Origin: Trinickia symbiotica | GTDB taxonomy: Bacteria; Pseudomonadota; Gammaproteobacteria; Burkholderiales; Burkholderiaceae | Direction: 5' to 3' | Assembly (NCBI RefSeq): GCF_002934455.1 | Contig: NZ_PTIR01000001.1 | Span: 124,001-188,000 of the forward strand | Length of the DNA stretch: 64,000 nucleotides | Shown here: positions 5,658 through 23,075 of the stretch, in pieces | How the letters are laid out: the number at the start of each line of letters is the position of its first letter | Numbering within the stretch: the stretch's first letter is position 1 | Program-made: the position numbers and the translations under genes | Notes under the pieces: generated by a model | What the model was told of the DNA's origin: nothing | What the model saw: the letters and a program-made list of their open reading frames with translations, nothing else | Database searches by the model: none

Positions 5658-7439
5658 TTACCGAACGTTGGCGGCGACTGCCGACGCACCGGTTGCTTCG
5701 GACTGCGCGGTCAAAAACTGGTGAATCTGCGCGACCACGGCGGCCCCTTCCCCTACGGCCGCCGCAACGCGCTTCGTCGAACCCGACCGGACATCGCCGA
5801 TCGCGAACACGCCCGCGACGCTGGTCTGGAGCGGCAGCCGCGAGGCGCTCGGGCTGTCTTCCGCCCCCAGGTCAGCGCCTGTCAATACAAAGCCTTTCTT
5901 GTCCACCGATACACCGCAAGTGCGGAGCCAGCTCGTATTAGGCTCGGCGCCGATGAAGAGGAACAGATGATGAGTCGCGATGCTTTCGAGCGCACCGTCG
6001 CGCCGGCGATAACGGACGAGCTCGAGCCGCTCCTCGCCTTCGAGCGCGGCAACTTCGCAATTCGTATGGATCGTGACGTTCGGCAGCGATTGAATGCGAT
6101 CGATCAGATACCGGGACATGCTCTGTTCGAGATCCGGGCCGCGGACGAGTAAATGGACATGAGCGGCGTGCGAAGCAAGAAACACCACCGCCTGCCCCGC
6201 GGAGTTGCCGCCGCCGACCAGCAGCACCGATTCGTTGCGACATAGTCGCGCCTCGATCGGCGTCGCCCAGTAGTAGATGCCGCGACCTTCGAAGCGCCCG
6301 AGGCTATCCACGGCCGGACGCCGATACTCCGCACCGCTCGCGATGATGACGGTGCGCGCCGTGACACGGCGTGAACCCGTCAACTCCACCTCGAGCGGAT
6401 ACTCTCCGCAATGCAGGGCCTTCACCTCTACCGGAATGGCAATGTGCGCACCGAATTTTTGAGCTTGAACGAACGCCCTCCCGGCCAGCGCCTGCCCGGA
6501 GATCCCCGTCGGAAAACCCAGGAAGTTCTCGATGCGGGCGCTCAAACCCGCCTGACCGCCTGGCGCGCGGCAGTCGAAAGCGGCCACCGACAGGCCCTCG
6601 GACGCGGCATACACGGCCGCCGCCAGACCAGCCGGTCCCGCGCCGACGATCGCGACGTCGTATAGGTGGGCGCGATCGAACTCCGGCAGGAGTCCTAAAC
6701 AAGACGCGAGCTGCCCCTCGTCGGGATTGCGCAACACGGTGCCATCCGGACATACGACGAGCGGCATGTCATCGCACTGCGGCGTCAAGCGCTCGAGCAA
6801 GGCAATCGCATCGGCATCGCCGACGTCGAGCGCCATGTGCGGATACGCGTTGCGCCGCAGAAAGTGCTGCAGCGCGAGCAGGCGGGGCCCATCGGGCGAG
6901 CCCACGAGCACCGCCCCCTGCCCGCGCTCGATCGCCGCGACACGCCTCAAAATGAGCGCGCGCATGATCTTTTCGCCGAGCTCGGCCTCCGCGATCATCA
7001 GCGCGCGCAGCCTGTCCGGCGGGATTACGAGCGCTTCGACCTGCTCGATGACTTCAGCATCGACGAGGGCTGGCTTGCCGGACAGCATGCCGATATCGGC
7101 CGTGAATTCGCCGCGCAGAACATCCTCGCGAATCAAGCGTTGACGACCGAGGCCGTCGCGCGCGATGTAACGAACCTTGCCCGACAAGAGGACGAACATG
7201 CCAGGACTCGAGCTGCCCGTGCTATAAAGCATGTCGCCCGCCGCGTAGCAGCAGAGCGCACCAAAACGATGCATCCGATCGATCTCCGCATCGGTCAGCG
7301 TCGGAAAGATCTGGTGGAAACGCAGACTGCTGAACGGAGACTGCTCGTCTCCCGCGGCGGCACGACCCGCGCCGCCATTCGTACCGATTTGGCCTGGGTT
7401 CGCGGGGGCGCCGCTTTGCGAAGAACCGTCACTGATCAT
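5658..7439 (-). CDS. Cyclic-nucleotide-domain / thioredoxin-reductase-like FAD oxidoreductase
   Basis: This 593-residue fusion protein has three parts. First is a cyclic-nucleotide-binding (CRP-like) domain at about residues 45-153. Next is a small thioredoxin-like fold without a CxxC at about 184-245. Last is a TrxR-type flavoprotein with the FAD motif GAGPAG (about 266-271) and the NAD(P)H motif GGGNSAG (about 408-414). Where thioredoxin reductase has CATC, this protein has WATP followed by EARLC, so both redox cysteines of the usual centre are absent. The phosphate-binding arginine of the cyclic-nucleotide pocket is also not evident (GEFTADIG...PALVDA). ATG at 7439 was chosen for its AAGAGG site; upstream in-frame starts look unreal. 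A close paralogue lies at 25096-26847. Substrate and ligand are unknown. Confidence 0.88.
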   Translation of the reverse strand: MISDGSSQSGAPANPGQIGTNGGAGRAAAGDEQSPFSSLRFHQIFPTLTDAEIDRMHRFGALCCYAAGDMLYSTGSSSPGMFVLLSGKVRYIARDGLGRQRLIREDVLRGEFTADIGMLSGKPALVDAEVIEQVEALVIPPDRLRALMIAEAELGEKIMRALILRRVAAIERGQGAVLVGSPDGPRLLALQHFLRRNAYPHMALDVGDADAIALLERLTPQCDDMPLVVCPDGTVLRNPDEGQLASCLGLLPEFDRAHLYDVAIVGAGPAGLAAAVYAASEGLSVAAFDCRAPGGQAGLSARIENFLGFPTGISGQALAGRAFVQAQKFGAHIAIPVEVKALHCGEYPLEVELTGSRRVTARTVIIASGAEYRRPAVDSLGRFEGRGIYYWATPIEARLCRNESVLLVGGGNSAGQAVVFLASHAAHVHLLVRGPDLEQSMSRYLIDRIQSLPNVTIHTNCEVAALEGEERLELVRYRRRDGALESIATHHLFLFIGAEPNTSWLRTCGVSVDKKGFVLTGADLGAEDSPSASRLPLQTSVAGVFAIGDVRSGSTKRVAAAVGEGAAVVAQIHQFLTAQSEATGASAVAANVR

Positions 7440-11468: not shown

Positions 11469-12077
11469 TCAGGCGGCTCGATCCGACGCGGCTTGGTCGA
11501 TAGACGGGTCTGCCGCCGACGGTTGTTCAGCCGACGGTTGTTCCGCCGACGGTTGCTCAGCCGCCGCATTGGCCGGCTCGGCTGCCCCTTCTTTGGCTTG
11601 CCGACGCGAAGCATGGGCGCCGTGCGCCTGCCTGCGCGCGAACGCCGCGTCGCGCGCGGTGACCGAGCCCGCCGCCGCGCCAGTCAGGTCGACGCGGGCC
11701 GCTCCGTCGACCAGGCATGCCCAGTAACGGCTGCCGCGGCACCAGGTGCTGACCGCGAGGCGGATTTCGTCTTCCTTGAGCTTGAGCTCTTCCGCGTGGG
11801 CTAGAAGGTCCGCCAGAATCCCGATCTTCAGCGGCACCTTGGGCGCCGGCTTCTTGGGGAAAGCCGCCGGAAAGCGCTTCTGCAGCTTGCCGATCGTGCG
11901 CAGAACCGGATCGACCGGCTCCGTCTTCGCGGCCGCCCGGGCGTTCGCCTTCGGCGCGGCGGCGGGCCGTGGGGGCCGAACAGACTTCGGCTTGGCCGCC
12001 TGCTGTTTCGCTTCCCGCTCTTCCTTTGCCGCTTTTTTCAGCTGTTGCTTAAGAACTGCCAGTTGCTCAAAACCCAT
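11469..12077 (-). CDS. ProQ/FinO-family RNA-binding protein
   Basis: This 202-residue protein has a ProQ/FinO core at about residues 55-130, recognisable in LRTIGKLQKRFPAAF, PLKIGILADLL and the Trp-rich end AVSTWCRGSRYWACLVDGAARVDL. FinO-domain proteins bind structured RNAs, especially 3' terminator hairpins, and help sRNA-mRNA pairing. A basic, Ala/Lys-rich tail precedes the core. The C-terminal tail is low complexity and ends with three copies of a 5-residue AEQPS-type repeat encoded by a 15-bp tandem repeat (11518-11562). The gene has no evident partner apart from the small downstream gene. Confidence 0.88.
   Translation of the reverse strand: MGFEQLAVLKQQLKKAAKEEREAKQQAAKPKSVRPPRPAAAPKANARAAAKTEPVDPVLRTIGKLQKRFPAAFPKKPAPKVPLKIGILADLLAHAEELKLKEDEIRLAVSTWCRGSRYWACLVDGAARVDLTGAAAGSVTARDAAFARRQAHGAHASRRQAKEGAAEPANAAAEQPSAEQPSAEQPSAADPSIDQAASDRAA
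11518..11562. repeat. 15-bp tandem repeat, three copies, in the ProQ-like gene tail
   Basis: Three consecutive 15-bp units, GACGGTTGTTCAGCC and two one- or two-base variants, encode the repeated pentapeptide near the C-terminus. The length keeps the frame, so copy-number change would only shorten or lengthen the disordered tail. Confidence 0.85.
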
Positions 12078-12289
12078 GCTACGTCCCGTAACCGTCCTCC
12101 AAGAACTGGAATAGTACCGCCCTTTGCCAACTGACGTCGATCACGGCCCGCCGCGCGGGCCCGCGCTGGGGGCGTTGCTACGCCGAATCATCTGCTGCGC
12201 TCGACGCTGATCAGATCTCACTCGATACGTCACGCCGCTCCACCTCCGTACTCTTCGCTACGCCAGACCACGGCACAGGTCGTGGCTTC

Positions 12290-13255
12290 TCAACCACCAC
12301 CGCCCGAAGCGGTCTCGACGCGCGCATCGCGTCGCACAGCCTGCGGCGGCAAACCAAAGCCGCGCATAAACGCCTCCCGCATATGTCGGCGATCGCGGAA
12401 ACCCGTTTCCTTCGCGATCGTATCCAGCGGATGCCGGCTTTGCTCGATCATCAGGCGCGCCGCTTCGAGGCGTAGTCCTTCGATCGCCTTGGCCGGCGAT
12501 TTGCCCGTTTCGAGCGTAAACACGCGGCTGAATTGACGCGGGCTCAAGTGGACAGCCTCGGCCAATTCCTCGACGGTCAATGTTCGGCTCAGGTTCTTGC
12601 GCGCATAGTCCAACGCGCTCTGGATACGATCGGACTTCGGCGCGAGATCCAGCATTTCAGAGTGCTGCGACTGCCCGCCCGACCGCCTCTGATGCATGAC
12701 CAGCTTGTGGGCGACGGATCGCGCGACATCCGCACCGAGATCCTTCTCCACCATCGCGAGCGCCAGGTCGAGGCCCGCGGTCATCCCGGCAGACGTCCAG
12801 ACGGAACCGTCCACGATATAAATGCGATCGTCTTCGACGCGAATGTCAGGAAAGCGCTTCTGCATTTCTCGCGCGAAAGCCCAGTGCATCGTTGCGCGCC
12901 GCCCGGCGAGCAACCCGGCTTCGGCCAGCACGAATCCGCCCGTGCAAATGCCCGCGATGCGCCGCGCGCGCTGGCCCGCTTTGCGCAGGAATGAGAGGAC
13001 CTCGGCCGGCGCGGATGAAGTGGTCGGATCGATGACGCCCGCCACGATCCACGTATGAACTTCGCGGCGCTCACGCACCGACCGGGTGCCGACAACCATG
13101 CCCAATGACGAGCGCACGTCGCCTCCGTCGACCGAAAAATTGTCGAGCTCGTAGAACGGATCGCCCGTCGCCACATTCGCGCACTCAAAAACGGCCTGTG
13201 TGGCGAGCGCCATGACCTGGAAGCCGTCGCTCAGAAGAAAGCCAATCCGATGCAT
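12290..13255 (-). CDS. GlxA-family transcriptional regulator (DJ-1/PfpI + AraC HTH)
   Basis: The 321-residue protein joins a DJ-1/PfpI-like domain to a C-terminal AraC-type DNA-binding domain. The first domain (residues 1-200) has Cys104 in the ICTGG nucleophile-elbow position. The second (about 215-310) has two helix-turn-helix units, including TVEELAEAVHLSPRQFSRVF and DTIAKETGFRDRRHMREAF. In this family the first domain probably senses a ligand. GGGAGAACGGAC precedes the ATG. It is transcribed divergently from a short-chain dehydrogenase gene 118 bp away, which is its most likely target. A second family member lies at 43497-44486. Confidence 0.92.
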   Translation of the reverse strand: MHRIGFLLSDGFQVMALATQAVFECANVATGDPFYELDNFSVDGGDVRSSLGMVVGTRSVRERREVHTWIVAGVIDPTTSSAPAEVLSFLRKAGQRARRIAGICTGGFVLAEAGLLAGRRATMHWAFAREMQKRFPDIRVEDDRIYIVDGSVWTSAGMTAGLDLALAMVEKDLGADVARSVAHKLVMHQRRSGGQSQHSEMLDLAPKSDRIQSALDYARKNLSRTLTVEELAEAVHLSPRQFSRVFTLETGKSPAKAIEGLRLEAARLMIEQSRHPLDTIAKETGFRDRRHMREAFMRGFGLPPQAVRRDARVETASGGGG

Positions 13256-13373
13256 GTCCGTTCTCCCGCCCCTGTGTCTTGAATCAATACCTTATACGTC
13301 ATTTACGCCACAGTCAAACCGCGTCAAAGTGTCCTCACGCAATTCCTTGCAACGTTCTAATCGGAGAAACGAC

Positions 13374-14174
13374 ATGAAGCAAGCACATCAAGGCACAGCC
13401 GTCATCACTGGCGCATCGTCGGGCATCGGCGCGGTCTACGCGAACCAGCTGGCCCGCCGCGGCTACGACCTCATTCTCGTCGCGCGCAACCGCGACCGTC
13501 TCGCCGCGCTCGCCGCGCGCATCGGCGACGAGACGCGCCAAAGCGTCGAGATCGTCGATGCAGACCTGAGCGACCGGAACGACCTCTCCGCCGTCGAAGC
13601 GAAACTCAGGCAGGACGCGAGCATTACGCTGCTGGTCAACAACGCCGGCGTGGGCACGCACACTCCACTGCTCGAGAGCGACGTCGAAGCGATGACGAAG
13701 ATGATCGATCTGAACGTGACGGCACTCACGCGTCTCACTTATGCCGCGGTACCTGGCTTCGTGGCGCGCGGCAAGGGCGCCGTGATCAACATCTCATCGA
13801 TTGTCGCGATTGCGCCGGAGGTTCTCAACGGCGTCTACGGCGGCAGCAAGGCCTTCGTGCTGGCCTTCAGTCAATCGCTGAACCACGAACTCGCCGACAA
13901 AGGCGTGCAAGTGCAGGCGGTTTTGCCGGGCGCCACGGCCACCGATTTTTGGCAGACAGGCGGTCTGCCGCTCGAAAACCTTCCGAAGGAAATCGTCATG
14001 TCGGCTGAAGCGATGGTCGACGCGGCGTTGACCGGCTTCGATCGGCGCGAACTCGTCACGATCCCGTCGCTGCATGCGGTGGAAGAATGGGACGCTTACG
14101 AGGCGGCGCGCTTGACCATGTCGCCGCATCTCACGAGCAACGTCCCCGCACCGCGCTATACGGTCGCGCAATGA
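13374..14174 (+). CDS. Short-chain dehydrogenase/reductase (classical SDR)
   Basis: The 266-residue protein is a classical NAD(P)-dependent SDR. It has the cofactor motif TGASSGIG (residues 12-19), NNAG after the fourth strand, the catalytic Ser in INISSI and the Tyr/Lys pair in YGGSK. RNRDRL after the second strand, with an Arg following the glycine motif region, suggests NADP(H) preference. The ATG at 13374 is preceded by GGAGAAACGAC; an upstream in-frame start at 13200 would run into the divergent GlxA gene. The substrate is unknown, probably a carbonyl compound whose presence is sensed by the neighbouring GlxA-type regulator. Confidence 0.9.
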   Translation: MKQAHQGTAVITGASSGIGAVYANQLARRGYDLILVARNRDRLAALAARIGDETRQSVEIVDADLSDRNDLSAVEAKLRQDASITLLVNNAGVGTHTPLLESDVEAMTKMIDLNVTALTRLTYAAVPGFVARGKGAVINISSIVAIAPEVLNGVYGGSKAFVLAFSQSLNHELADKGVQVQAVLPGATATDFWQTGGLPLENLPKEIVMSAEAMVDAALTGFDRRELVTIPSLHAVEEWDAYEAARLTMSPHLTSNVPAPRYTVAQ

Positions 14175-14276
14175 TGCTGCTTTCCGCAGTCGTATGAATC
14201 CCGCCGAGAGCGGTGCCCGGTGCGGCGTTGGCAACGCAACCCTTTATCGGCACGCCTTCGGCTCAACTAGAGAACC

Positions 14277-14690
14277 ATGATGGAAAACGCTAAACGATGG
14301 ATGACGGCGCTCATCGCAGCGCTCGTCACAGTGACGTTCCAGGCTGCCGAAGCTGCCGACGTCGAACGGCACGATCCGGCTCCGACGACGGTGGCGCGTC
14401 ACGCTTCCGCGAATTCGCCGATCAGGTTGCGGGTCGAAGCTCCCACTGGGCGCATCGAGCAACTCGCCTATCGACCCGGACGAGGTTGGAGTTCCTCCGC
14501 GCCTGCTGGTTCCGACGCCGGGGCGGCCGCCACCCGCGCCGTACATGCGGATGCGGAAGGACGCGATCGGAACGCGGGCGGAAGCCAGCCCATGAGCGTA
14601 TTCATCGACGGTCCGACTGGCTACACCTACGTTTGGAATCGCGACAAGGGCTGGACATTCGTGGGCCGCATCAGCAACCGCGTCGAGTAA
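14277..14690 (+). CDS. Small secreted protein with duplicated PTG...GW motif
   Basis: This 137-residue protein starts with a signal peptide (hydrophobic residues 9-24, cleavage after AEA). The mature part holds two diverged copies of one motif. The first has PTG at residues 56-58 and RGW at 69-71; the second has PTG at 113-115 and DKGW at 123-126, each in a short strand-turn-strand pattern. The middle is low-complexity Ala/Asp. No enzyme motif or membrane segment is present after cleavage. I do not recognise a function; a periplasmic or surface beta-hairpin protein is a fair guess. It precedes another small secreted protein, but a 216-bp gap separates them. Confidence 0.7.
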   Translation: MMENAKRWMTALIAALVTVTFQAAEAADVERHDPAPTTVARHASANSPIRLRVEAPTGRIEQLAYRPGRGWSSSAPAGSDAGAAATRAVHADAEGRDRNAGGSQPMSVFIDGPTGYTYVWNRDKGWTFVGRISNRVE

Positions 14691-14906
14691 TCGGCGTGGT
14701 CGCGGCCAGGAAGCGGAGCGCTACGACGGCAAAGGCTGAAACGCCAGCGCTCCCTGCACGGCATCGGCCGGGATTGTTCTGCGCCGCGAGCCAGTGATTT
14801 CACGCAGCAGGTATTTAACTCATAAGCGAGCGTGCTTAGACTGCGAAGCACCTGCTGCTGATATCGAATCACAGCTCACTGGAAACAGAACTTAGGAGGT
14901 TACATC

Positions 14907-15224
14907 ATGAACTCGCTCATCAAAGCCGTTGCTGTCGCGCTCGCCATCGCCGCTCCCGTCGCGTCATTCGCGCAATCGAATCAACCGGTCACGCGCGCAC
15001 AAGTTCGCGCCGAACTCGTGCAACTCGAGAAGGCCGGCTACTCGCCGCTCCGTGGTGACGATCCGTACTATCCGGCCGACATCCAGGCTGCCGAAGCGCG
15101 CGTCGCCGCGCAAAACGGCGGCGTCGCAGGTACGACCGACATTGGCGGCGTAAGCGCGGGCGCGGCTGCTTCGGGCCATGCGGCCAATGCAACTGGCACG
15201 AAGTCCATTTACTTCGGGCAATAA
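14907..15224 (+). CDS. DUF4148 secreted protein
   Basis: The 105-residue protein has a Sec signal peptide ending in SFAQS. The DUF4148 core reads VTRAQVRAELVQLEKAGYSPL, with the PYYPADIQAAEARV segment following. This family is found mainly in Burkholderiales, often many copies per genome, and has no known function. A strong AGGAGG site lies in front of the ATG and a terminator hairpin follows, so it is probably a monocistronic and well-expressed unit. The C-terminal part is Gly/Ala rich. Confidence 0.9.
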   Translation: MNSLIKAVAVALAIAAPVASFAQSNQPVTRAQVRAELVQLEKAGYSPLRGDDPYYPADIQAAEARVAAQNGGVAGTTDIGGVSAGAAASGHAANATGTKSIYFGQ

Positions 15225-15301
15225 CCGCGTGGACGCAACAGCGGGGCGACTAGCCCGCCCTGCTCTCGCCCGCAACGTTGCGGCGCGGATTCGATACTAG
15301 A

Positions 15302-15337
15302 GGCCGGCACGGAGCGACCGCTCCGTCGCCGGCCTTT
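15302..15337 (+). terminator. Rho-independent terminator after the DUF4148 gene
   Basis: GGCCGGC and CGGAGCG pair with CTCCG and GCCGGCC around an ACCG loop, followed by a short TTT. It begins 78 bp after the stop codon of the DUF4148 gene. Confidence 0.75.
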
Positions 15338-15453
15338 GCCATTTGGCTCATCCGTCGGGGTACGCAAGCATCCATCTCATCAACGCTTCGCTACTCCTCC
15401 TGTCCATCATTCGATTGACCAAGTCGGCCCCAAACACCTGGGCACACGCCGGA

Positions 15454-15499
15454 TTGTGTCGCAATGTATCCGAGCCGAGTATCGATACAAAGCATTGCA
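15454..15499 (+). promoter_or_regulatory. 46-bp regulatory box upstream of the ccdA-trx-ohr operon
   Basis: The box contains TTGTGTC (15454-15460), TGTATC (15465-15470), GATACAA (15484-15490) and TTGCA (15495-15499). The same blocks, at offsets 0, 11, 30 and 41, occur at 20071-20116 in front of the two-component operon. The 11-bp-spaced half-sites resemble the direct repeats bound by OmpR-family response regulators. It lies 79 bp upstream of the first gene. The rest of 15338-15577 shows nothing else I can name. Confidence 0.6.
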
Positions 15500-15577
15500 A
15501 CGAAGCGGCGTCGGCGACACAAGCGAGATACGTAAGGGCGCTCCAATACAGCATGCGCAAAACGAGGAGCGCCAATC

Positions 15578-16279
15578 ATGCACAATCTGCTCGAACCCCC
15601 TCTGGCCCTGCTCGCAGGCCTCTTCACAGTAGCTTCGCCCTGTGTCCTGCCGGTCATGCCGATCCTGCTCGGTACGTCGGTGGAAAGGCCGAGCCGCGGG
15701 CGCCCGCTTCTCATCGTCGCGGGCTTCATCGTTACATTCACGTCCGTCGCGCTGATGCTCGGTGCCGTCTCTAGCGCGGTTCACGTCGCGCAGAGCGCAC
15801 TGCGCGATACGGCTATCGCTTTGCTGGGATTGTTCGGACTGTTGCGCCTCTGGCCTCGCCCGTATGACTGGCTGGTCGCACGCATCGCCCCTTTGTTGCA
15901 AGTCGGCTCAGGCACGTCAGCCGGCAACGGCAACGCAGGCGGCTTCGTGCTGGGCATGTCGCTCGGCGCCGTATGGACACCGTGCGCGGGCCCGGTTCTC
16001 GCATCGATCCTGGTGCTCGTCGTCAAAGCGCAGAACCTCGAATGGTCCGCGCTGTTGCTGACCCTGTATGCCGTCGGAGCCGCCATTCCGATGCTCGCGA
16101 TCATCTACGGCGGCCAATACATGTTCCGTCATGTACGGTTCGTCGCGCGGCACGCCGAGCGTCTCCAGCAATTGTTCGGTGTACTGATCATTCTCACTGC
16201 GCTCGCGATCTATCTGCAATACGACGTGCTCGTCTACGGCTGGATCTCGTCGTTCTTTCCTTCGTTCAAAGGAGTTTGA
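15578..16279 (+). CDS. CcdA/DsbD-type transmembrane thiol transporter
   Basis: The 233-residue inner-membrane protein has six predicted helices and the two cysteines of the DsbD-beta/CcdA family, in ASPCVLPVMP (helix 1) and VWTPCAGPVL (mid-protein). These proteins carry reducing equivalents from cytoplasmic thioredoxin to periplasmic thioredoxin-like partners. The partner is very probably the next gene, which starts one base after this stop codon. GAGGAG precedes the ATG. The operon also encodes an Ohr-type peroxidase, so the role here is probably repair or defence against thiol and peroxide stress rather than cytochrome c maturation, for which no other genes are present. Confidence 0.9.
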   Translation: MHNLLEPPLALLAGLFTVASPCVLPVMPILLGTSVERPSRGRPLLIVAGFIVTFTSVALMLGAVSSAVHVAQSALRDTAIALLGLFGLLRLWPRPYDWLVARIAPLLQVGSGTSAGNGNAGGFVLGMSLGAVWTPCAGPVLASILVLVVKAQNLEWSALLLTLYAVGAAIPMLAIIYGGQYMFRHVRFVARHAERLQQLFGVLIILTALAIYLQYDVLVYGWISSFFPSFKGV

Positions 16280-16280
16280 C

Positions 16281-16823
16281 ATGCTCGCTCGATTCAAGGC
16301 CCTCGCGGCGGCGGCGGTTGCCGTCGCGATCGCGGCCGCGGTAGCCACCGCCGGAGGCACCGCGACAGCCGGCCAGGCCGGCAACGGCAAGACCGCGCCC
16401 GAATTCACCGGCATCGACAACTGGATCAACAGCCCGCCGCTGACGCAGCAACAGCTTCGAGGCAAGGTCGTGCTCGTCGATTTCTGGACTTATAGCTGCA
16501 TCAACTGCATTCATACGCTGCCGTACGTCAAGACCTGGTACCAGAAATACAAGGATCAGGGCCTTGTCGTGGTGGGCGTGCATACGCCCGAATATCCGTT
16601 CGAACGCAGCACCGATAACGTCAAAACCGCGATCAAGCGCTTCGGCATCGAATACCCCGTCGCGCAAGACAACGAGTACGCGACCTGGAACGCGTACAGC
16701 AATCAATATTGGCCCGCTTTCTATCTGATCGATAAGGAAGGCCGTGTGGTCTATACGCACTACGGCGAAGGCGAGTACGCCCAGACCGAGCAGCAAATCC
16801 GCAATCTTCTTGCACAAAAGTAA
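16281..16823 (+). CDS. Periplasmic thioredoxin-like protein (DipZ/TlpA type)
   Basis: This 180-residue protein has an N-terminal signal/anchor helix (residues 8-30) and a redoxin domain with the active site SCINC (Cys73, Cys76) inside FWTYSCINCIHTLPY. This is the wording typical of the C-terminal thioredoxin domain of DipZ proteins, here as a separate gene. It also has the cis-Pro loop (YWPAFYLIDKEG). It should receive electrons from the CcdA-like protein encoded immediately upstream and reduce a periplasmic substrate. GGAGTTTGAC gives a good start. The gene is in an operon with the Ohr-like gene downstream. Confidence 0.9.
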   Translation: MLARFKALAAAAVAVAIAAAVATAGGTATAGQAGNGKTAPEFTGIDNWINSPPLTQQQLRGKVVLVDFWTYSCINCIHTLPYVKTWYQKYKDQGLVVVGVHTPEYPFERSTDNVKTAIKRFGIEYPVAQDNEYATWNAYSNQYWPAFYLIDKEGRVVYTHYGEGEYAQTEQQIRNLLAQK

Positions 16824-16858
16824 GCACCTTCTCAACACCCAACCAACGAGGAATGACA

Positions 16859-17278
16859 ATGACCACGACTGTCCTTTACACAGCCAAGACTCACACGACA
16901 TCCGGAGGCCGTGACGGCACATCGCGCAGCGACGACGGCCGGCTCGACATCGCGCTTTCGTCTCCCGGCAGTGCCGGCAACGGTACGAACCCCGAGCAAT
17001 TGTTCGCGGCCGGATGGTCGGCTTGTTTCATCGGCGCAATAGGGCTCGCGGCCAAGAAAATGAAAGTGGCGTTGCCGCCTGATCTCGCCGTCGATGCCGA
17101 GGTCGACTTATGCAAGGCCGGCGACGCCTACTCTTTGCAGGCCCGCCTCAACGTGAGCATGCCCGGAGTCACACGAGACACCGCGCAGGCGCTCGTCAAC
17201 GCCGCCCATGAAACGTGCCCCTACTCCAAAGCGACACGGGGCAACATCGAAGTGACGCTGAACGTCGTGGCAGCGTAG
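16859..17278 (+). CDS. Ohr/OsmC-family organic hydroperoxide reductase
   Basis: The 139-residue protein has the Ohr catalytic set: Arg18 in GGRDG, Glu47 in NPEQLFA, the peroxidatic Cys56 in SACFIGA and the resolving Cys120 in ETCPYSKATRGN. Such enzymes reduce organic hydroperoxides with lipoylated-protein electrons in the cytoplasm. I place the start at ATG 16859, seven bases after GAGG; the ATG at 16853 is too close to that site. Ohr genes are often governed by an OhrR repressor. None is adjacent here, and the shared box upstream of the operon points to the nearby two-component system instead. Confidence 0.92.
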   Translation: MTTTVLYTAKTHTTSGGRDGTSRSDDGRLDIALSSPGSAGNGTNPEQLFAAGWSACFIGAIGLAAKKMKVALPPDLAVDAEVDLCKAGDAYSLQARLNVSMPGVTRDTAQALVNAAHETCPYSKATRGNIEVTLNVVAA

Positions 17279-17447
17279 GACTCGTTCTTCCCACGCGAGA
17301 GTGTTTTTCCGCGTTTGTCCGCCGTGGGTGTTCGAAGTCGGACCCGGCGCGCTTGAAGTTCGATCCACCGAATCGATCGAATCGATCGAGTCGAACCATT
17401 CGAACGGCAAGCAGCCAAGTCCAATTCACTTCTTCAGCTTGCGATCT

Positions 17448-18767
17448 TCAACTAGCGCTCTTCAGTGTCAGCGTTGCAGCGAGCCCGCCCTCGGGCCGGT
17501 TCGCCAGGCTCAAAGTCGCATCCATCGCGCGTGCGAGTTGGCGAGCAATTGCGAGTCCGAGGCCGGTGCCGCCCGTATGGCGGTTGCGCGACGTTTCGAG
17601 CCGGTAGAACGGTTCGAAGACCGCCTCGAGCGATTCGGCCGGTATTCCGGGGCCGCTGTCGAGCACCGAAATGGCGACACGCCCATCGGGCAACGCGCTG
17701 ACGTCGATGGTGGCGCCCCCCCCGAACTTGAGCGCGTTGTCGACAAGGTTGCCGACGATGCGACGCAACGCCTGCGGCCGCGCCGTCACCGCAAGCGCGG
17801 CGCGGCTGCCCATCGATACCTGCGCGCCTGCGTCCACATAGTCGTAGACGATGCTCTCGAGCAGCGCGTCGAGGTCGATCTTGCGGGGCTCCTCTCCGGT
17901 GCCGTGGAGCGTGCGCGCATAGGTCACGCCCTCCTTCACGAGGTTTTCCATTTCCCGCAGGTCCTGCTGAAGCTTGCCCGCCCGCTCCCCATCGTCATCG
18001 ACGTCGAGCCGCAGGCGCATCCGCGTGATCGGCGTTTGTAGATCGTGCGAAATAGCCGCCAGTATCTGCATCCGCTCGGCCGTGTAGATCGCGATGCGCT
18101 CCTGCATTGCATTGAACGCCCGAGCCGCGCGCGCCACCTCCGAAGGCCCTTCCTCCGACAGCTTGGTCGGCTTCAGCTCGGGTCCGAGCGCATCGGCCGC
18201 GCTCGCAAGCGCCGCGAGGGGTCGCGTCGCGACCCGCACCGCGAGCCAACAGCAAGCAAGGAGCACCGCAAGCTGCAGGATCAACCCGAATGGCAACCAT
18301 CCCGAGAGCGGGAGGCTCGACATGGGGTGGAAATCGATCGTGAGCGGCGTGCCGTCCGTGAGCCGCAGATGCACTTGCAGATGATCGTGCTCGCCAGGGA
18401 CTGCGTTGGCGGTCACCGGATATCGGGTGCCGACGCCTTCTTCGATCGCTTGCGCGATTCGCGCCGAAAGCTTCTCGTCAGGCGTGCTGCCCGCGATGCC
18501 CGGGCCGAGCACGAAACGGTAGGTGCGTCTCGCGAGCCGCGGCAGCCACGCCTCCCTTTCATCCGGCCGCATCCGATCGAGCAAGGCGACTGAGGTCGTC
18601 ACTTCCCTGTCGATGTAGCTGACCATCATGCTCGTCGTGGTCTGATCGCGCTCGGTCACCGTCAACCAGAACGACATGCCCTGGGCCAGCGCGAGTCCGA
18701 TCGAGAGAATCAGCGCCAGTCGCGCGAATAGCGTGCGCGGCCAATGCCAGGCGCCGAAAAGCTTCAT
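17448..18767 (-). CDS. Sensor histidine kinase (EnvZ-like)
   Basis: This 439-residue membrane kinase has TM1 at about residues 12-33, a periplasmic loop of about 120 residues, TM2 at about 157-178 and a HAMP region. The phosphoacceptor is His241 in AAISHDLQTPITRMR. The ATPase domain shows the N box (GNLVDNALKFGG), G1 (DSGPGIP) and G2 (GGTGLGLAI). It would sense an envelope signal and phosphorylate the response regulator encoded upstream. The ATG overlaps that gene's stop codon (ATGA, 18764-18767), so the two are translationally coupled. The upstream frame extension is the shadow of the regulator gene. Confidence 0.93.
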   Translation of the reverse strand: MKLFGAWHWPRTLFARLALILSIGLALAQGMSFWLTVTERDQTTTSMMVSYIDREVTTSVALLDRMRPDEREAWLPRLARRTYRFVLGPGIAGSTPDEKLSARIAQAIEEGVGTRYPVTANAVPGEHDHLQVHLRLTDGTPLTIDFHPMSSLPLSGWLPFGLILQLAVLLACCWLAVRVATRPLAALASAADALGPELKPTKLSEEGPSEVARAARAFNAMQERIAIYTAERMQILAAISHDLQTPITRMRLRLDVDDDGERAGKLQQDLREMENLVKEGVTYARTLHGTGEEPRKIDLDALLESIVYDYVDAGAQVSMGSRAALAVTARPQALRRIVGNLVDNALKFGGGATIDVSALPDGRVAISVLDSGPGIPAESLEAVFEPFYRLETSRNRHTGGTGLGLAIARQLARAMDATLSLANRPEGGLAATLTLKSAS

Positions 18768-19507
18768 TGCCCCGGCCCGTCCACGGCCGTCACGGCCGCG
18801 GAGAAGACATAGCCTTCGCTGCGCAGGGTCTTGATGTAACGCGGCTCGCGCGCGACGTCGCGCAACCGCTGGCGCAACCGGCTGACGAGCAGGTCGATCG
18901 AGCGATCGAACGCGTCGGCCTGCCGTCCCTGCGTCAGATTCAATAGCTGGTCGCGCGTCAAGACGCGCTGAGGGTGATCGAGAAAGACGCGCAACAGACG
19001 ATACTCGGCGCCGCTCAGCGAGACCATCATTCCTTCCGAATCGAGCAAGTGGCGTGCGGTGGTATCGAGCCGCCAATCGCCAAACGCGAGCATGTTCGCC
19101 GTTTCGGTCACCTGCATGCCCGGCGGCAGCATGCGCGTGCGGCGCAAGACGGCACGCACGCGCGCTAGCAGCTCGCGCACGGCGAACGGCTTCGCGAGGT
19201 AATCGTCGGCGCCCATCTCGAGCCCCACGATGCGATCGGTCTCTTCGCCGCGCGCCGTCAGCATCAATACGGGCGTCGCGCGGTGCTTGCCAGCACGCAG
19301 ATCGCGGCAAAGGACAAGCCCGTCTTCGCCAGGCAGCATCAAGTCGAGCACGATCAGGTCAGGCGCTCCGCCTTCGAGCACCTGACGCATCTCGCGACCG
19401 TTCGCCGCCAGCGACACGCGCATGCCGTTTTTCTCGAGATAGTCGCCCACGAGCTCGCGGATACCGCGATCGTCGTCGACGACGAGCACATGATCGATTT
19501 TGTCCAT
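18764..19507 (-). CDS. OmpR-family response regulator
   Basis: The 247-residue protein has a receiver domain with the acidic pair DDD (residues 11-13), phosphoacceptor Asp55 in VLDLMLP and Lys106 in LAKPF. A winged-helix DNA-binding domain follows (about 140-235), with GAEYRLLRVFLDHPQRVLTRDQLL and the recognition region SIDLLVSRLRQRL. OmpR-type regulators bind tandem half-sites about 10-11 bp apart. Such repeats occur in the operon's own promoter (20071-20087) and in front of the ccdA-trx-ohr operon (15454-15470). ATG at 19507 fits the family start; it follows the 40-aa ORF by seven bases. Confidence 0.93.
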   Translation of the reverse strand: MDKIDHVLVVDDDRGIRELVGDYLEKNGMRVSLAANGREMRQVLEGGAPDLIVLDLMLPGEDGLVLCRDLRAGKHRATPVLMLTARGEETDRIVGLEMGADDYLAKPFAVRELLARVRAVLRRTRMLPPGMQVTETANMLAFGDWRLDTTARHLLDSEGMMVSLSGAEYRLLRVFLDHPQRVLTRDQLLNLTQGRQADAFDRSIDLLVSRLRQRLRDVAREPRYIKTLRSEGYVFSAAVTAVDGPGQ

Positions 19508-19514
19508 GAGCAGA

Positions 19515-19637
19515 TCATACGCCGCGCCGCTTGACGCGCACGGGACTGGCGCTGAGCAGCATGCACTGCACGGGATGCGCGAGCTCAGCGGCGAGGCCAC
19601 CCACGAGCAACGCAGCGATCGCAAGGAGGCGTTTCAT
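19515..19637 (-). CDS. 40-residue small membrane or exported peptide in the two-component operon
   Basis: This 40-codon frame lies between the GFA gene and the response regulator. Its ATG overlaps the GFA stop codon (ATGA, 19634-19637) and has GGAGGACGC in front. It ends seven bases before the regulator start, so it fills the gap exactly as a real coupled gene would. The peptide begins MKRLLAIAALLVGGLAA, a typical signal or membrane helix. It continues with a single Cys in HPVQCMLL and ends in a basic tail (VRVKRRGV). I do not recognise a family. A small membrane modulator of the kinase is an attractive guess, not shown by sequence. Confidence 0.6.
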   Translation of the reverse strand: MKRLLAIAALLVGGLAAELAHPVQCMLLSASPVRVKRRGV

Positions 19638-20017
19638 GCGTCCTCCGCGACAGACAGGCTCGCGCCATCGGCAACGGTAGCTTCGAGCGCATAGGGGTCG
19701 ACGCCTTCCAGACAGCCCACATTGACGCGCCAGAGCTTCGGGTTCATCCGCGTCTGATGAAATGTATAAACACCGCAATGCCGGCAAAAATAGTGCTTGG
19801 CCACGTGCATGTTGAATTGATAGAGCGTCAGCGCATCGTTGCCGCGGACAATCGTCAGATGGTCCGCTTCGAACGGCGGCGACATCAGCGCGCCCCGGCG
19901 TCGGCAGAGGCTGCAGTTGCAGCGCGTCGCGGGCTGTAGCGCGGTGCGCACCTCGAACTGCACGGCCCCGCAGTGGCAGGATCCGTGCAGCGGCGCATCG
20001 TCATCGGTATGGCTCAT
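19634..20017 (-). CDS. GFA-family (glutathione-dependent formaldehyde-activating-like) zinc protein
   Basis: The 127-residue protein carries the GFA/CENP-V zinc ligands: HGSCHCGAVQF near the N-terminus, CNCSLCRRRG, and HYFCRHCGVYTFH. The family was named for spontaneous glutathione-formaldehyde binding, but most members have no proven reaction. ATG at 20017 is preceded by GGAGAGTGTT. It is the first gene of an operon with the 40-aa peptide, response regulator and kinase, joined by four-base overlaps or very short gaps. A TATAAA -10 element (20046-20051, minus strand) lies at a suitable distance from the two direct half-sites. Confidence 0.88.
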   Translation of the reverse strand: MSHTDDDAPLHGSCHCGAVQFEVRTALQPATRCNCSLCRRRGALMSPPFEADHLTIVRGNDALTLYQFNMHVAKHYFCRHCGVYTFHQTRMNPKLWRVNVGCLEGVDPYALEATVADGASLSVAEDA

Positions 20018-20070
20018 AACACTCTCCAATGATGGTGATGCTCGCTTTATACCGCGAAGGCCGCCGCGGT

Positions 20071-20116
20071 TTGTATCTCCGTGTATCCGGCCGATCCGCC
20101 GACACAAAACGTTGCA
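20071..20116 (-). promoter_or_regulatory. 46-bp regulatory box in front of the GFA-peptide-RR-HK operon
   Basis: The plus strand shows TTGTATC (20071-20077), TGTATC (20082-20087), GACACAA (20101-20107) and TTGCA (20112-20116), the same offsets as the box at 15454-15499. On the minus strand the two GATACA half-sites overlap the -35 position relative to TATAAA at 20046-20051. This is where an OmpR-type activator would contact RNA polymerase. Relative to the controlled operon, the orientation is opposite to the other copy; the outer arms are quasi-palindromic. Confidence 0.62.
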
Positions 20117-20195
20117 CTTGCCCGGCGAGCAAACGACTGGAGGTCCGTCCGGCTAGCGAAGCGGCGAACTCGCTACGCCTCGAGCCGAGCTATGG

Positions 20196-20222
20196 CGCCA
20201 CCTTTCGATCACGCCACCTTTC
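20196..20222. repeat. Two direct copies of CGCCACCTTTC, 16 bp apart
   Basis: CGCCACCTTTC occurs at 20196-20206 and again at 20212-20222, upstream of the sugar ABC operon promoter. The copies are exact. Their function is unknown; a regulator site is possible but the spacing is unusual. Confidence 0.5.
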
Positions 20223-20265
20223 AATTTCAGGGACGTCCCATTAATTGGTAGGGTTGCGGTGCCGC

Positions 20266-20293
20266 TTGACAGGTCTTTCGCCACTCATCTAAC
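20266..20293 (+). promoter_or_regulatory. Predicted promoter of the sugar ABC importer operon
   Basis: TTGACA (20266-20271) is followed after 16 bases by TCTAAC (20288-20293), a sigma-70-like pair with a consensus -35 and a weak -10. It ends about 45 bp before the start codon of the binding-protein gene. Confidence 0.45.
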
Positions 20294-20338
20294 GTTTTCG
20301 GATCAGGCGGTACTCACCTGGTCGATGGGGGAAAATCA

Positions 20339-21475
20339 ATGAGAAGCATGCAGAAAGTTCTGTATCCCACGGCAACTGCAATACTGATGACGGTGGCATT
20401 GTCATTATCGACGCCGGCTTTTTCCGCGGGTCCTAAGGTAGTCAATGGGCCCGGCGCGGAGCCAGGCTGCTTCAAGCCGGAATCGGCCAGCACGAAATTC
20501 TTCCAGTGGCCAGCGAAGCCGGGGCCTTACCGAATCGCGCTCGTGAATGGGTTCATCGCCAACGACTGGCGCGTCCAGATGATCCGGGTCGCCAAGGCCT
20601 ATGTCGCCCAGCCCGCGGTGAAGAAGGACATCAAGGAATTCAAGGTCGTCTCGGTCGGCCAGGACGTCGCCGCGCAGATCGCCGCCGCCAACAATTTCAT
20701 CGATCAGGGCTTCGACGCGATCATCGTCGACGCCAATAGCGCCGCGGCCTTCAAAAGCGTGGTCCACAAGGCGAATGCGAAGGGCGTGGTCGTCGTATCG
20801 TTCGACAACGTGATCGACAGCCCGGACCAGATCTCGGTCAACGTGAACCAGCTCGGTCTCGGCGAAATGGCCGCAAAGTTTCTGCTGGAAAAAGCCAAGA
20901 AGGCGGGCGATCTCACGTTCCTGCACGTCCGCGGCCCGTCCGGTCAGCCGGTGGACCTCGCCCGGGACAAGGGCTTTCATGACGTGCTCGACAAGTCGGG
21001 CCGCAAGGTCAAGGTGGTCGACGTCATCGGCAACTGGGCGCCCGGGGATGCGCAGAAGGCGACCGCCGACGCGATCGCAGCGGGTGGCGTGTTCGACGGC
21101 CTCTACGTTCAGGGCGGAACGCAAGGCGCGGTGCAGGCGATGCTCGACGCCAACAAGTTCAAGGCGCCGATCTCCGGCGAGACGGAGAACGCTTACCGCA
21201 TGCTTTGCGACAAGGCCGATCTCACCTGCCAGTCCGGCGGCACGGGCCCGGCGCAAAGCGCCGTGGCCATCAAGACCGCGATTGCCGCGCTTAAGGGCGA
21301 CGCAATCCCACAAAGCATCGCGCTGCCCACGTCGGTCGATTACTCACCGTTCAAGCCGGGCGAGAACGTCTTCCCGAAACTGCCGGGCAGCTTCTTCGCC
21401 GGCAACAACTTCCCAAGCTGCAATATCGGTTTCTCGGCCGAGGAAATCGCGACGCAGAGCGGCACGAACAACTGA
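20339..21475 (+). CDS. Periplasmic sugar-binding protein of a ribose-type ABC importer
   Basis: The 378-residue protein has a signal peptide (cleavage near AFSA) and a type I periplasmic-binding fold of the RbsB/XylF kind. Recognisable segments are YRIALVNGFIANDWRVQMI, AANNFIDQGFDAIIVDANS and FDGLYVQGGTQGAVQAML. It delivers a sugar or related polyol to the two permeases encoded downstream. Compared with ribose-binding protein (about 270 mature residues) it is longer, with an N-terminal segment of about 40 residues containing a cysteine, and two further cysteine pairs towards the C-terminus. It is first in a four-gene operon. The substrate is not predictable. Confidence 0.88.
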   Translation: MRSMQKVLYPTATAILMTVALSLSTPAFSAGPKVVNGPGAEPGCFKPESASTKFFQWPAKPGPYRIALVNGFIANDWRVQMIRVAKAYVAQPAVKKDIKEFKVVSVGQDVAAQIAAANNFIDQGFDAIIVDANSAAAFKSVVHKANAKGVVVVSFDNVIDSPDQISVNVNQLGLGEMAAKFLLEKAKKAGDLTFLHVRGPSGQPVDLARDKGFHDVLDKSGRKVKVVDVIGNWAPGDAQKATADAIAAGGVFDGLYVQGGTQGAVQAMLDANKFKAPISGETENAYRMLCDKADLTCQSGGTGPAQSAVAIKTAIAALKGDAIPQSIALPTSVDYSPFKPGENVFPKLPGSFFAGNNFPSCNIGFSAEEIATQSGTNN

Positions 21476-21524
21476 ACCGGAGAGCGGCGGCGATCGCCGC
21501 CGCGCGGGAGGGAGACGCGACACG

Positions 21525-23075
21525 ATGGTGGAGCAAACGCCGGGCTCACTGCTACGGGTCGACGGGGTATCGAAGCACTACGGCGGCGTCCGGGCGCTGC
21601 AGGACGTGCGATTCTCCTGCCGCGCGGGCTCGATCCACGCCCTTTTGGGCGAGAACGGGGCGGGCAAGTCCACGTTCATCAAGATCCTCTCCGGCGTGGT
21701 GCGGCCGGACAGCGGCCGCATCTTTCTCGGCGGCGAGCCGGTCAGCTTCGAGACGCCCAAAGCCGCAGCGGACGCGGGCATATCCTGCATATTCCAGGAG
21801 CTTTCGCTGCTGCCCGATCTGACCGTGGCCGACAACATCTGCATCGCCGACCGGCGGCGCCGGTTCGGGCTGATCGATCGAGCGGCCGAGCGGCGGCGAG
21901 CTGAAGAGATGCTGGCCATCATCGGCGGGGAGGACATCCATCCCGCCGCCCCGGTCGGCAGCCTGCCTCTATCGCGCCAGCAGATGGTCGAAATCGCCAA
22001 GGCGCTGGCGCGGCGGCCCAAAGTGCTGATCCTCGACGAAGCGACGTCGGCGCTGACGGCCGCCGATGTGGCGAAGGTCTGCGCGCTTCTCAAGCGGCTC
22101 AGGGCGGAAGGGATGGCGATCATCTACATCTCTCACCGGATGCACGAGATCGCGGAGCTCGCCGACGAATGCACGGTTTTCCGCAATGGCCGCTACATCG
22201 AGACGTTCGCGGCCGGAACGCGTTCGGACGATGCGATCGTCGAAATGATGATCGGCCGGGAATACTCGAGCGCATTTCCGCCGCTCGGCGGGACCCGGCG
22301 CGAAGGAACGCCGGCGCTTGCTGTCCGCCATCTTTCCTGGGCCGGCGAATTGAACGATGTCTCCCTCGAAGTTCATCCGGGGGAGGTGGTCGGGTTAGGC
22401 GGGCTCGACGGTCAAGGCCAGCGCGAGTTCCTGCTGGCGCTCTTCGGCGCACTGATCGGTGTTGGCGGCGAGATCGAAGTGGCCGGCAAGCCGGTGAAGA
22501 TCACGAGCCCCCGGCGCGCGAAGTCGGCTGAGCTCGGGCTCGCGTTGATTCCCGAAGATCGAAAGAACGAAGGCCTGATGCTGCCGATGACCGTGCGCGA
22601 AAACCTGTCCTTCGCCGCGCTCGACGCGGTCAGCCGTTTCGGCCGGATCGACCGCAAAGCCGAAGCCGCGTTGATCGACGCGCTGGTGCGTCAGCTCGCG
22701 ATCAAGTCGGACGGGCTCGATGGTCCCGTGGCCGCGCTTTCAGGCGGCAATCAGCAGAAGGTCGTGATCGGCAAATGGCTGATGACTAAGCCGCGCGTCG
22801 TGCTGCTGAACGACCCGACGAGAGGCATCGACGTCGGCACGAAGCAGGAGATCTACCAACTGCTGCGGCGGCTGGCGGAGCAAGGAACGGCCATCCTTTT
22901 CTATTCCACCGATTACGATGAACTGATTGGATGCTGCGACCGCGTGGCCGTCTTCTACGATGGCACGATCACGCGGATGCTGGAAGGTGCCGAGCTGACC
23001 GAGCACAATCTGATCGGCGCCGCGCTGAACCTGACGTCGGCGGCCAGGCGGCCCGCTTCGTCCGTCGCGAGGTAG
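21525..23075 (+). CDS. Double-domain sugar ABC transporter ATPase (RbsA/XylG type)
   Basis: This 516-residue protein contains two fused ABC ATPase halves. The first has Walker A GENGAGKST, signature LSRQQMVEIAKALA and Walker B VLILDEATSAL. The second has a degenerate Walker A region (GLGGLDGQGQREF), signature LSGGNQQKVVIGKWL and VVLLNDPTRGIDVGTK. This asymmetry is normal for the CUT2 family. It powers import by the adjacent permeases. ATG at 21525 follows a purine-rich GGAGGGAGA site. The gene overlaps nothing and is followed four bases later by the first permease. Confidence 0.93.
   Translation: MVEQTPGSLLRVDGVSKHYGGVRALQDVRFSCRAGSIHALLGENGAGKSTFIKILSGVVRPDSGRIFLGGEPVSFETPKAAADAGISCIFQELSLLPDLTVADNICIADRRRRFGLIDRAAERRRAEEMLAIIGGEDIHPAAPVGSLPLSRQQMVEIAKALARRPKVLILDEATSALTAADVAKVCALLKRLRAEGMAIIYISHRMHEIAELADECTVFRNGRYIETFAAGTRSDDAIVEMMIGREYSSAFPPLGGTRREGTPALAVRHLSWAGELNDVSLEVHPGEVVGLGGLDGQGQREFLLALFGALIGVGGEIEVAGKPVKITSPRRAKSAELGLALIPEDRKNEGLMLPMTVRENLSFAALDAVSRFGRIDRKAEAALIDALVRQLAIKSDGLDGPVAALSGGNQQKVVIGKWLMTKPRVVLLNDPTRGIDVGTKQEIYQLLRRLAEQGTAILFYSTDYDELIGCCDRVAVFYDGTITRMLEGAELTEHNLIGAALNLTSAARRPASSVAR

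Follow-up and report, generated by a model that had tools for sequence, protein, structure and literature searches.

Within a 64,000-nt stretch of the Trinickia symbiotica genome (contig NZ_PTIR01000001.1, positions 124,001 to 188,000; hereafter the window), two similar 46-bp blocks, box 1 and box 2, flank a gene cluster in the same orientation, which raises the question of what a site shared by two operons might do. Downstream of box 1 lie ccdA, a gene for a thioredoxin-like protein and ohr; downstream of box 2, on the opposite strand, lie the genes for a GFA-domain protein, an OmpR-family response regulator and a sensor kinase, with a 40-codon open reading frame (ORF) between the first two (Table 1). 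We consider it highly probable that the block is the operator of this response regulator, which would be activated by the adjacent kinase, and that its two ends would serve two promoters. That a shared regulatory site links both operons had been proposed from the letters alone (the sequence-only reading), and the proposal is supported by comparative evidence, namely co-occurrence with the kinase, recurring gene sets and promoter spacing.

The two 46-mers agree at 30 of 46 positions in an ungapped comparison, and the next best match to either of them or its reverse complement in the window reaches 24-26 of 46. Both carry four blocks at identical offsets, and the bases between the blocks have diverged, so that the sequence-only reading was correct on both counts. 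It had also put forward the four-block pattern for a genome search, in which no random scatter was found: allowing up to three mismatches, the pattern occurs at these two places in the window (none in 100 dinucleotide shuffles) and at the same two places only in the whole genome (6,714,023 bases in 61 contigs; reversed-pattern control 0). A scan with a position weight matrix (PWM) likewise gave no additional box in the window, and no non-coding RNA was matched in Rfam for positions 12000-22000 at gathering thresholds.

Two copies of the half-site TGTATC begin at offsets 1 and 11, and two inverted copies at offsets 30 and 40, with offset 23 as the centre of symmetry. This gives a layout of TGTATC-n4-TGTATC-n13-GATACA-n4-RTTGCA, that is, two tandem pairs standing face to face with start spacings of 10-19-10. 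The half-site spacing of 11 bp given by the sequence-only reading has to be corrected to 10 bp, and 11 bp was ruled out by the spacing grid described below, which peaks at 10-19-10. Two positions that the search pattern left free are conserved as well (C at offset 8 in 92% and C at offset 39 in 88% of 160 distinct boxes with up to four mismatches). The outermost right half-site is mostly RTTGCA, and GATGCA, GATTCA or GATACA in some relatives. In sites of OmpR/PhoB-type regulators the half-sites are repeated in tandem at roughly one turn of the helix, and the copy nearest the promoter occupies the -35 region. The direct half-sites of the box, repeated in tandem at 10 bp, fall within the 10-11 bp typical of that family, and each tandem pair may hold one dimer of the phosphorylated response regulator.

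Is the box found where the two-component pair is found? It was present in five of 11 genomes of the genus and in 194 of 398 sampled genomes of the family, with no match to the reversed pattern in those entries. A relative of the kinase was detected in 244 of the 398 at E <=1e-80. Box and kinase occurred together in 190 genomes, the box alone in 4, the kinase alone in 54 and neither in 150. Where the kinase was close (E ~1e-165 or better), 165 of 171 genomes had a box at up to three mismatches, and in five of the remaining six a weaker box (PWM 33-52) precedes a response-regulator relative; in genome G383 it stands at one of three such relatives. One of the genomes with the box only, G296, has the regulator without a kinase match. 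At the level of loci, 80 named loci were scored for a box of PWM >=25 lying upstream of the response regulator at a distance of up to 1.2 kb. Among loci with a kinase match of at least 65%, 34 of the 38 that could be assessed had such a box (2 more were cut off); it was present in one of three at 54-65% and, below 50%, in one of 35 (2 more were not assessable), the latter being the Denitromonas locus L150. GFA operons unlinked to the kinase contig (G097, G233) and other genes also carry the box.

The sequence-only reading had pointed to a response regulator of the OmpR type as the probable binder and had suggested autoregulation. Co-occurrence with the kinase together with the half-site geometry argues for the former, and boxes upstream of the regulator operon across relatives argue for the latter. 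By the same co-occurrence and geometry the response regulator very probably binds the box, and it would activate rather than repress.

The two ends of the box differ in the promoters that they appear to serve. On the left side of box 2 a TATAAA stands at 19 nt, and on the right side of box 1 a third half-site pair, overlooked by the sequence-only reading, is found in GACACAAGCGAGATACG, followed by TCCAAT. Elements of the opposite type were not seen on the other sides of the window's boxes on inspection, in part by eye. Promoters were surveyed in 165 boxes (PWM >=40) from loci selected for retrieval, counting genes within 260 bp. Genes of the regulator operon (GFA, 40-codon ORF, regulator, kinase) lay at the left end in 88 boxes and at the right end in none, and effector genes (Trx, CcdA, Ohr or DUF4148) at the right end in 76. 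TATAA was placed at exactly 19 nt from the left end in 78 of the 88 boxes with a regulator-operon gene there; on the right end, none of the 165 boxes had it at 18-20 nt. A further pair of the type GAYACA..GATAC (some variants allowed) was located 15-16 nt from the right end in 58 of the 76 boxes with an effector gene on that side, and on the left of the same boxes in none. When the boxes were clustered at 70% identity, which left 82 of them, the left TATAA (18-20 nt) remained in 29 of 34 and the right third pair in 28 of 41. The right-end promoter pattern has a single match in the T. symbiotica genome, at ccdA.

We therefore posit a polar element. At its left end, with TATAAA exactly 19 nt off and the outer half-site in the -35 region, it would normally serve GFA and the regulator genes, which would amount to autoregulation; the sequence-only reading had proposed that the box overlaps the -35 position at GFA, and this spacing upholds the proposal. 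At its right end, the extra pair GACACA-n5-GATACG and then TCCAAT would normally serve genes for thiol reduction and peroxide removal. A single box would serve both sides divergently in many relatives (48 of the 165 boxes lie between a regulator-type and an effector-type gene), and in T. symbiotica these functions would be divided between two boxes. In the window, then, one bidirectional element appears to have been split into two copies, each keeping the promoter of one end. The box had seemed awkwardly inverted relative to its operons because the two boxes are read from opposite ends; each operon is in fact read from the end that most relatives use. Other arrangements were seen in a few loci: two back-to-back boxes, separated by 10 bp, that lie between thioredoxin-like and CcdA-type genes in L090, L092 and L093 (~5730-6045), and two boxes within 1 kb near a gene for an extracytoplasmic function (ECF) sigma factor in L082 and L083 (~5750-6700), the latter also with a DUF4148 gene.

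A third site in the same genome was recovered with a relaxed three-half-site pattern, whose one additional hit, on contig C13, was obtained on both strands (reversed-pattern control 1). It lies upstream of a gene for an alpha/beta hydrolase of the twin-arginine translocation (Tat) type, 67.8% identical to the Sinorhizobium hydrolase that is located beside a relative of the kinase, and it has TATAAAGC at exactly 19 nt, with TATAAA as at GFA. The pattern TTATA-n19-TTGTATC-n4-TGTATC, with up to three mismatches, matched the GFA promoter (0 mismatches), the C13 hydrolase gene (1) and one further place at 3 mismatches in this genome. The hydrolase gene may accordingly be read as part of the same regulon.

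The system extends beyond the family. Kinase matches at E <=1e-70 were found in 30 of 398 genomes of the phylum, family members included. We assembled 19 loci with near-full-length kinase matches (47-55%) and added two Sinorhizobium plasmid loci. Of the 19, six belong to other classes, 12 to different orders within the same class and one to a different family within the same order. Of the resulting 21 loci, all except L261 have a place where 17 or more of the 24 half-site letters agree at 10-19-10 spacing, and none of 964,866 mononucleotide-shuffled bases exceeded 16 of 24. On a grid of 81 spacings, the 21 loci gave 27 matches of at least 18 letters at 10-19-10 and at most 5 at any of the other 80. 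Loci of paralogues (26 from Pseudomonas and one from Rhodospirillales; 410,560 bases) yielded no match at 10-19-10. Many of the sites outside the family, not all, precede hydrolase, DipZ/CcdA or regulator genes. In Denitromonas (L150) a box of PWM 30.4 is situated upstream of the regulator with TATAA at 19 nt from its left end, as judged by eye. A gammaproteobacterial metagenome locus (L159, 887-932; kinase 39%) shows the same layout with TGTAAC for TGTATC and an altered recognition helix, and half-site and helix possibly co-vary.

Several observations weigh against an operator dedicated to this regulator and against a strict promoter rule. Where the kinase is more distant, only 25 of 73 genomes have a box at up to three mismatches, and genome G154 has a close kinase and no box in the retrieved locus. 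Four loci with a close kinase (L120, L128, L139 and L142) have no box at the regulator. Three genomes of 3.7-3.9 Mb (G226, G281 and G306) have boxes and neither kinase nor regulator at the thresholds used; their boxes lie near DUF4148, CcdA-Trx or Ohr genes. The recognition-helix stretch of the regulator, DRSIDLLVSRLRQ, is identical in Pseudomonas paralogues that have no box, and as proof of the binder it was discarded for being common to them. Regarding the promoters, effector genes lie on the left in 9 of the 165 boxes, TATAA stands at 18-20 nt on the left of 6 of the 77 boxes whose left side has no regulator-operon gene, and in a listing of 48 boxes a Tat-type hydrolase gene starts to the right of 14 and to the left of 9. 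Finally, the counts are inflated by kinship among genomes, and the 165 boxes come from chosen loci.

The three reduced genomes that keep boxes without the pair are also what one would expect if another regulator bound the box, for example one of the OhrR/MarR or LysR type or the GlxA-type regulator of the window, with the kinase-regulator pair a mere target. The response-regulator operons could indeed be targets only, and a GlxA-type gene lies near the cluster both in the window and in Sinorhizobium meliloti. Against this stand the near-complete co-occurrence with the kinase (190 of the 194 boxed genomes; co-occurrence was computed for the kinase only) and the two 10-bp tandem pairs, which suit the OmpR family. 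We regard a different binder as quite improbable. We give practically no credence to the idea that the two copies are a remnant of a duplication, or a mobile element, with no regulatory role: they do flank a gene cluster in the same orientation, but their spacer bases have diverged and their half-sites have not, and copies lie upstream of a recurring gene set in several genera at fixed promoter spacing. Half-site conservation together with this fixed spacing led us to reject a mobile or structural repeat.

If the box is the operator of the OmpR-type regulator, the inducing signal is a separate matter. Two residues stand out in an alignment of 102 kinases: Cys172 in the second membrane helix is near-invariant (96 of 102), and His133, which belongs to the domain flanked by the two membrane helices, is retained in 94. 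They point to the sensing of either redox changes or metals and do not tell which. A structure model of modest confidence (predicted template modelling score, pTM, 0.42), used just for the order of helices and strands, supports the placement of this domain between the helices; solved structures close to the regulator and the kinase gave nothing specific. The gene content, with CcdA, a thioredoxin-like protein that is probably exported judging from its N-terminus, Ohr and GFA, fits thiol, peroxide or electrophile stress, and copper would fit too. We infer that the signal is thiol or peroxide stress of the envelope, caused by oxidants, electrophiles or copper.

Copper in particular could be sensed as in Pseudomonas aeruginosa DsbRS, where copper blocks the phosphatase activity of the kinase and the regulator induces disulfide-handling genes, an alternative that concerns the signal and leaves the operator as it is. 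The conserved His133 agrees with it, as does the reported control of dsb genes by DsbRS in response to copper (PMC10141476). No metal exporter or oxidase is encoded among the genes behind the window's two boxes, and Ohr and GFA are not known as typical copper genes. In favour of copper, however, the box is located upstream of DUF2282 genes, a family associated with copper-binding bufferins, in two relatives (L100 at ~6002 and L239 at ~1501). Altogether we think copper sensing of this kind unlikely. A broader picture is tentative and, in our view, somewhat doubtful: an envelope redox system, apparently spread horizontally from Burkholderiales to rhizobia and other proteobacterial orders, in which the kinase would sense membrane oxidants or electrophiles via Cys172 and the regulator would use a polar operator of four half-sites, with the promoter of one end for itself and that of the other for periplasmic thiol reduction and peroxide removal.

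Table 1. Sites and genes of the two box-bearing operons; positions are those of the window.
Feature	Position	Strand	Evidence or remark
Box 1	15454-15499	+	Half-sites TGTGTC 15455-15460, TGTATC 15465-15470, GATACA 15484-15489, ATTGCA 15494-15499; right end toward ccdA
Third half-site pair, right-end promoter	15516-15532	+	GACACA 15516-15521, GATACG 15527-15532; beside box 1 only
Putative -10 TCCAAT, ccdA-trx-ohr promoter	15542-15547	+	-10 assignment inferred from conservation
ccdA, CcdA/DsbD-type transmembrane thiol reductase	15578-16279	+	DsbD_TM 5.7e-12
Thioredoxin-like protein, active-site stretch CINC	16281-16823	+	Redoxin 2.7e-17; best NCBIfam match ResA, below its cut-off
Ohr organic hydroperoxide peroxiredoxin	16853-17278	+	TIGR03561, 164.9 bits vs cut-off 88.85
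Sensor histidine kinase, HAMP-HisKA-HATPase, small domain between two predicted membrane helices	17448-18767	-	Pfam, model
OmpR-family response regulator, proposed box binder	18764-19507	-	Response_reg + Trans_reg_C
40-codon ORF between GFA and response regulator	19515-19637	-	Overlaps GFA stop codon; tblastn matches in many related loci
GFA-domain protein, first gene of regulator operon	19634-20017	-	GFA 1.3e-17
-10 element TATAAA, GFA promoter	20046-20051	-	19 nt from left end of box 2
Box 2	20071-20116	+	Half-sites TGTATC 20072-20077, TGTATC 20082-20087, GACACA 20101-20106, GTTGCA 20111-20116; left end toward GFA (minus strand)

The two-component pair has the domain make-up of the OmpR/PhoB family, with a receiver and a Trans_reg_C domain in the regulator and HAMP, HisKA and HATPase_c in the kinase, all above the Pfam gathering scores (HisKA barely, 27.1 vs 26.9). 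The 40-codon ORF had no Pfam match. A DUF4148 gene adjoins the cluster (14907-15224). Farther out, at 12290-14174, lie the divergent genes of the GlxA-type regulator (12290-13255) and a short-chain dehydrogenase/reductase (SDR) oxidoreductase, and the same pair (58% and 67% identity) is found near the kinase relative of Sinorhizobium meliloti.

The box can serve directly as a sequence marker of a regulon that roughly half of the 398 sampled family genomes carry, with a related site in other proteobacterial orders, and it suggests a regulator for poorly understood genes, namely those of DUF4148, the Tat-type hydrolase, the GFA-domain protein and the 40-codon ORF. It is also an unusually clean example of one operator with structurally different promoters at its two ends. 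Among the matches listed in a search of the open-licence literature, no paper described the box or the regulon in its title or opening abstract, and passages of a study in which Cupriavidus metallidurans was exposed to copper (PMC7563307) offered no usable link.

How does the proposed regulon compare with known systems? OhrR is a one-component repressor of the MarR family. Ohr is a target there as it would be here, and there is no MarR gene among the genes of the window's two box-bearing operons. In Burkholderia cenocepacia the genes BCAL1763-1766, encoding exported proteins and Ohr, are reported to be strongly induced by H2O2 and NaOCl (PMC2830190). We treat this induction as a lead only: a related locus (L077) has a DUF4148-DUF4148-Ohr cluster, yet its sole box (PWM >=9) precedes GFA. 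DUF4148 genes also adjoin two-component systems of the IrlRS type, and IrlRS has been tied to Cd/Zn resistance in Burkholderia pseudomallei (PMC7549894). By that description the window resembles IrlRS in having a DUF4148 gene beside a two-component system, but its regulator falls below the cut-off of the heavy-metal regulator family CztR/SilR/CopR (TIGR01387, 145.4 vs 279.2 bits). DsbRS of Pseudomonas aeruginosa is described as a copper-responsive two-component system for disulfide genes (PMC10141476, PMC12802237) and on that description is alike in the two-component control of thiol/disulfide genes. Its targets as described there are dsbDEG, whereas here they would be CcdA/DipZ, the thioredoxin-like protein, Ohr, GFA, DUF4148 and the hydrolase. 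OmpR/EnvZ and PhoB-type systems share the receiver and winged-helix regulator, the HAMP-HisKA-HATPase kinase and the tandem half-sites. The window's proteins differ in scoring below the OmpR/EnvZ equivalog cut-offs of NCBIfam (NF007005, 252.7 vs 331 bits for the regulator; NF007004, 180.9 vs 415 bits for the kinase), and the site differs in having two facing tandem pairs 13 bp apart, with its own promoter type at each end. Comparative evidence across genomes gives good support to an OmpR-type regulon with an unusual two-ended operator, which the two operons would share as targets of the neighbouring two-component system.

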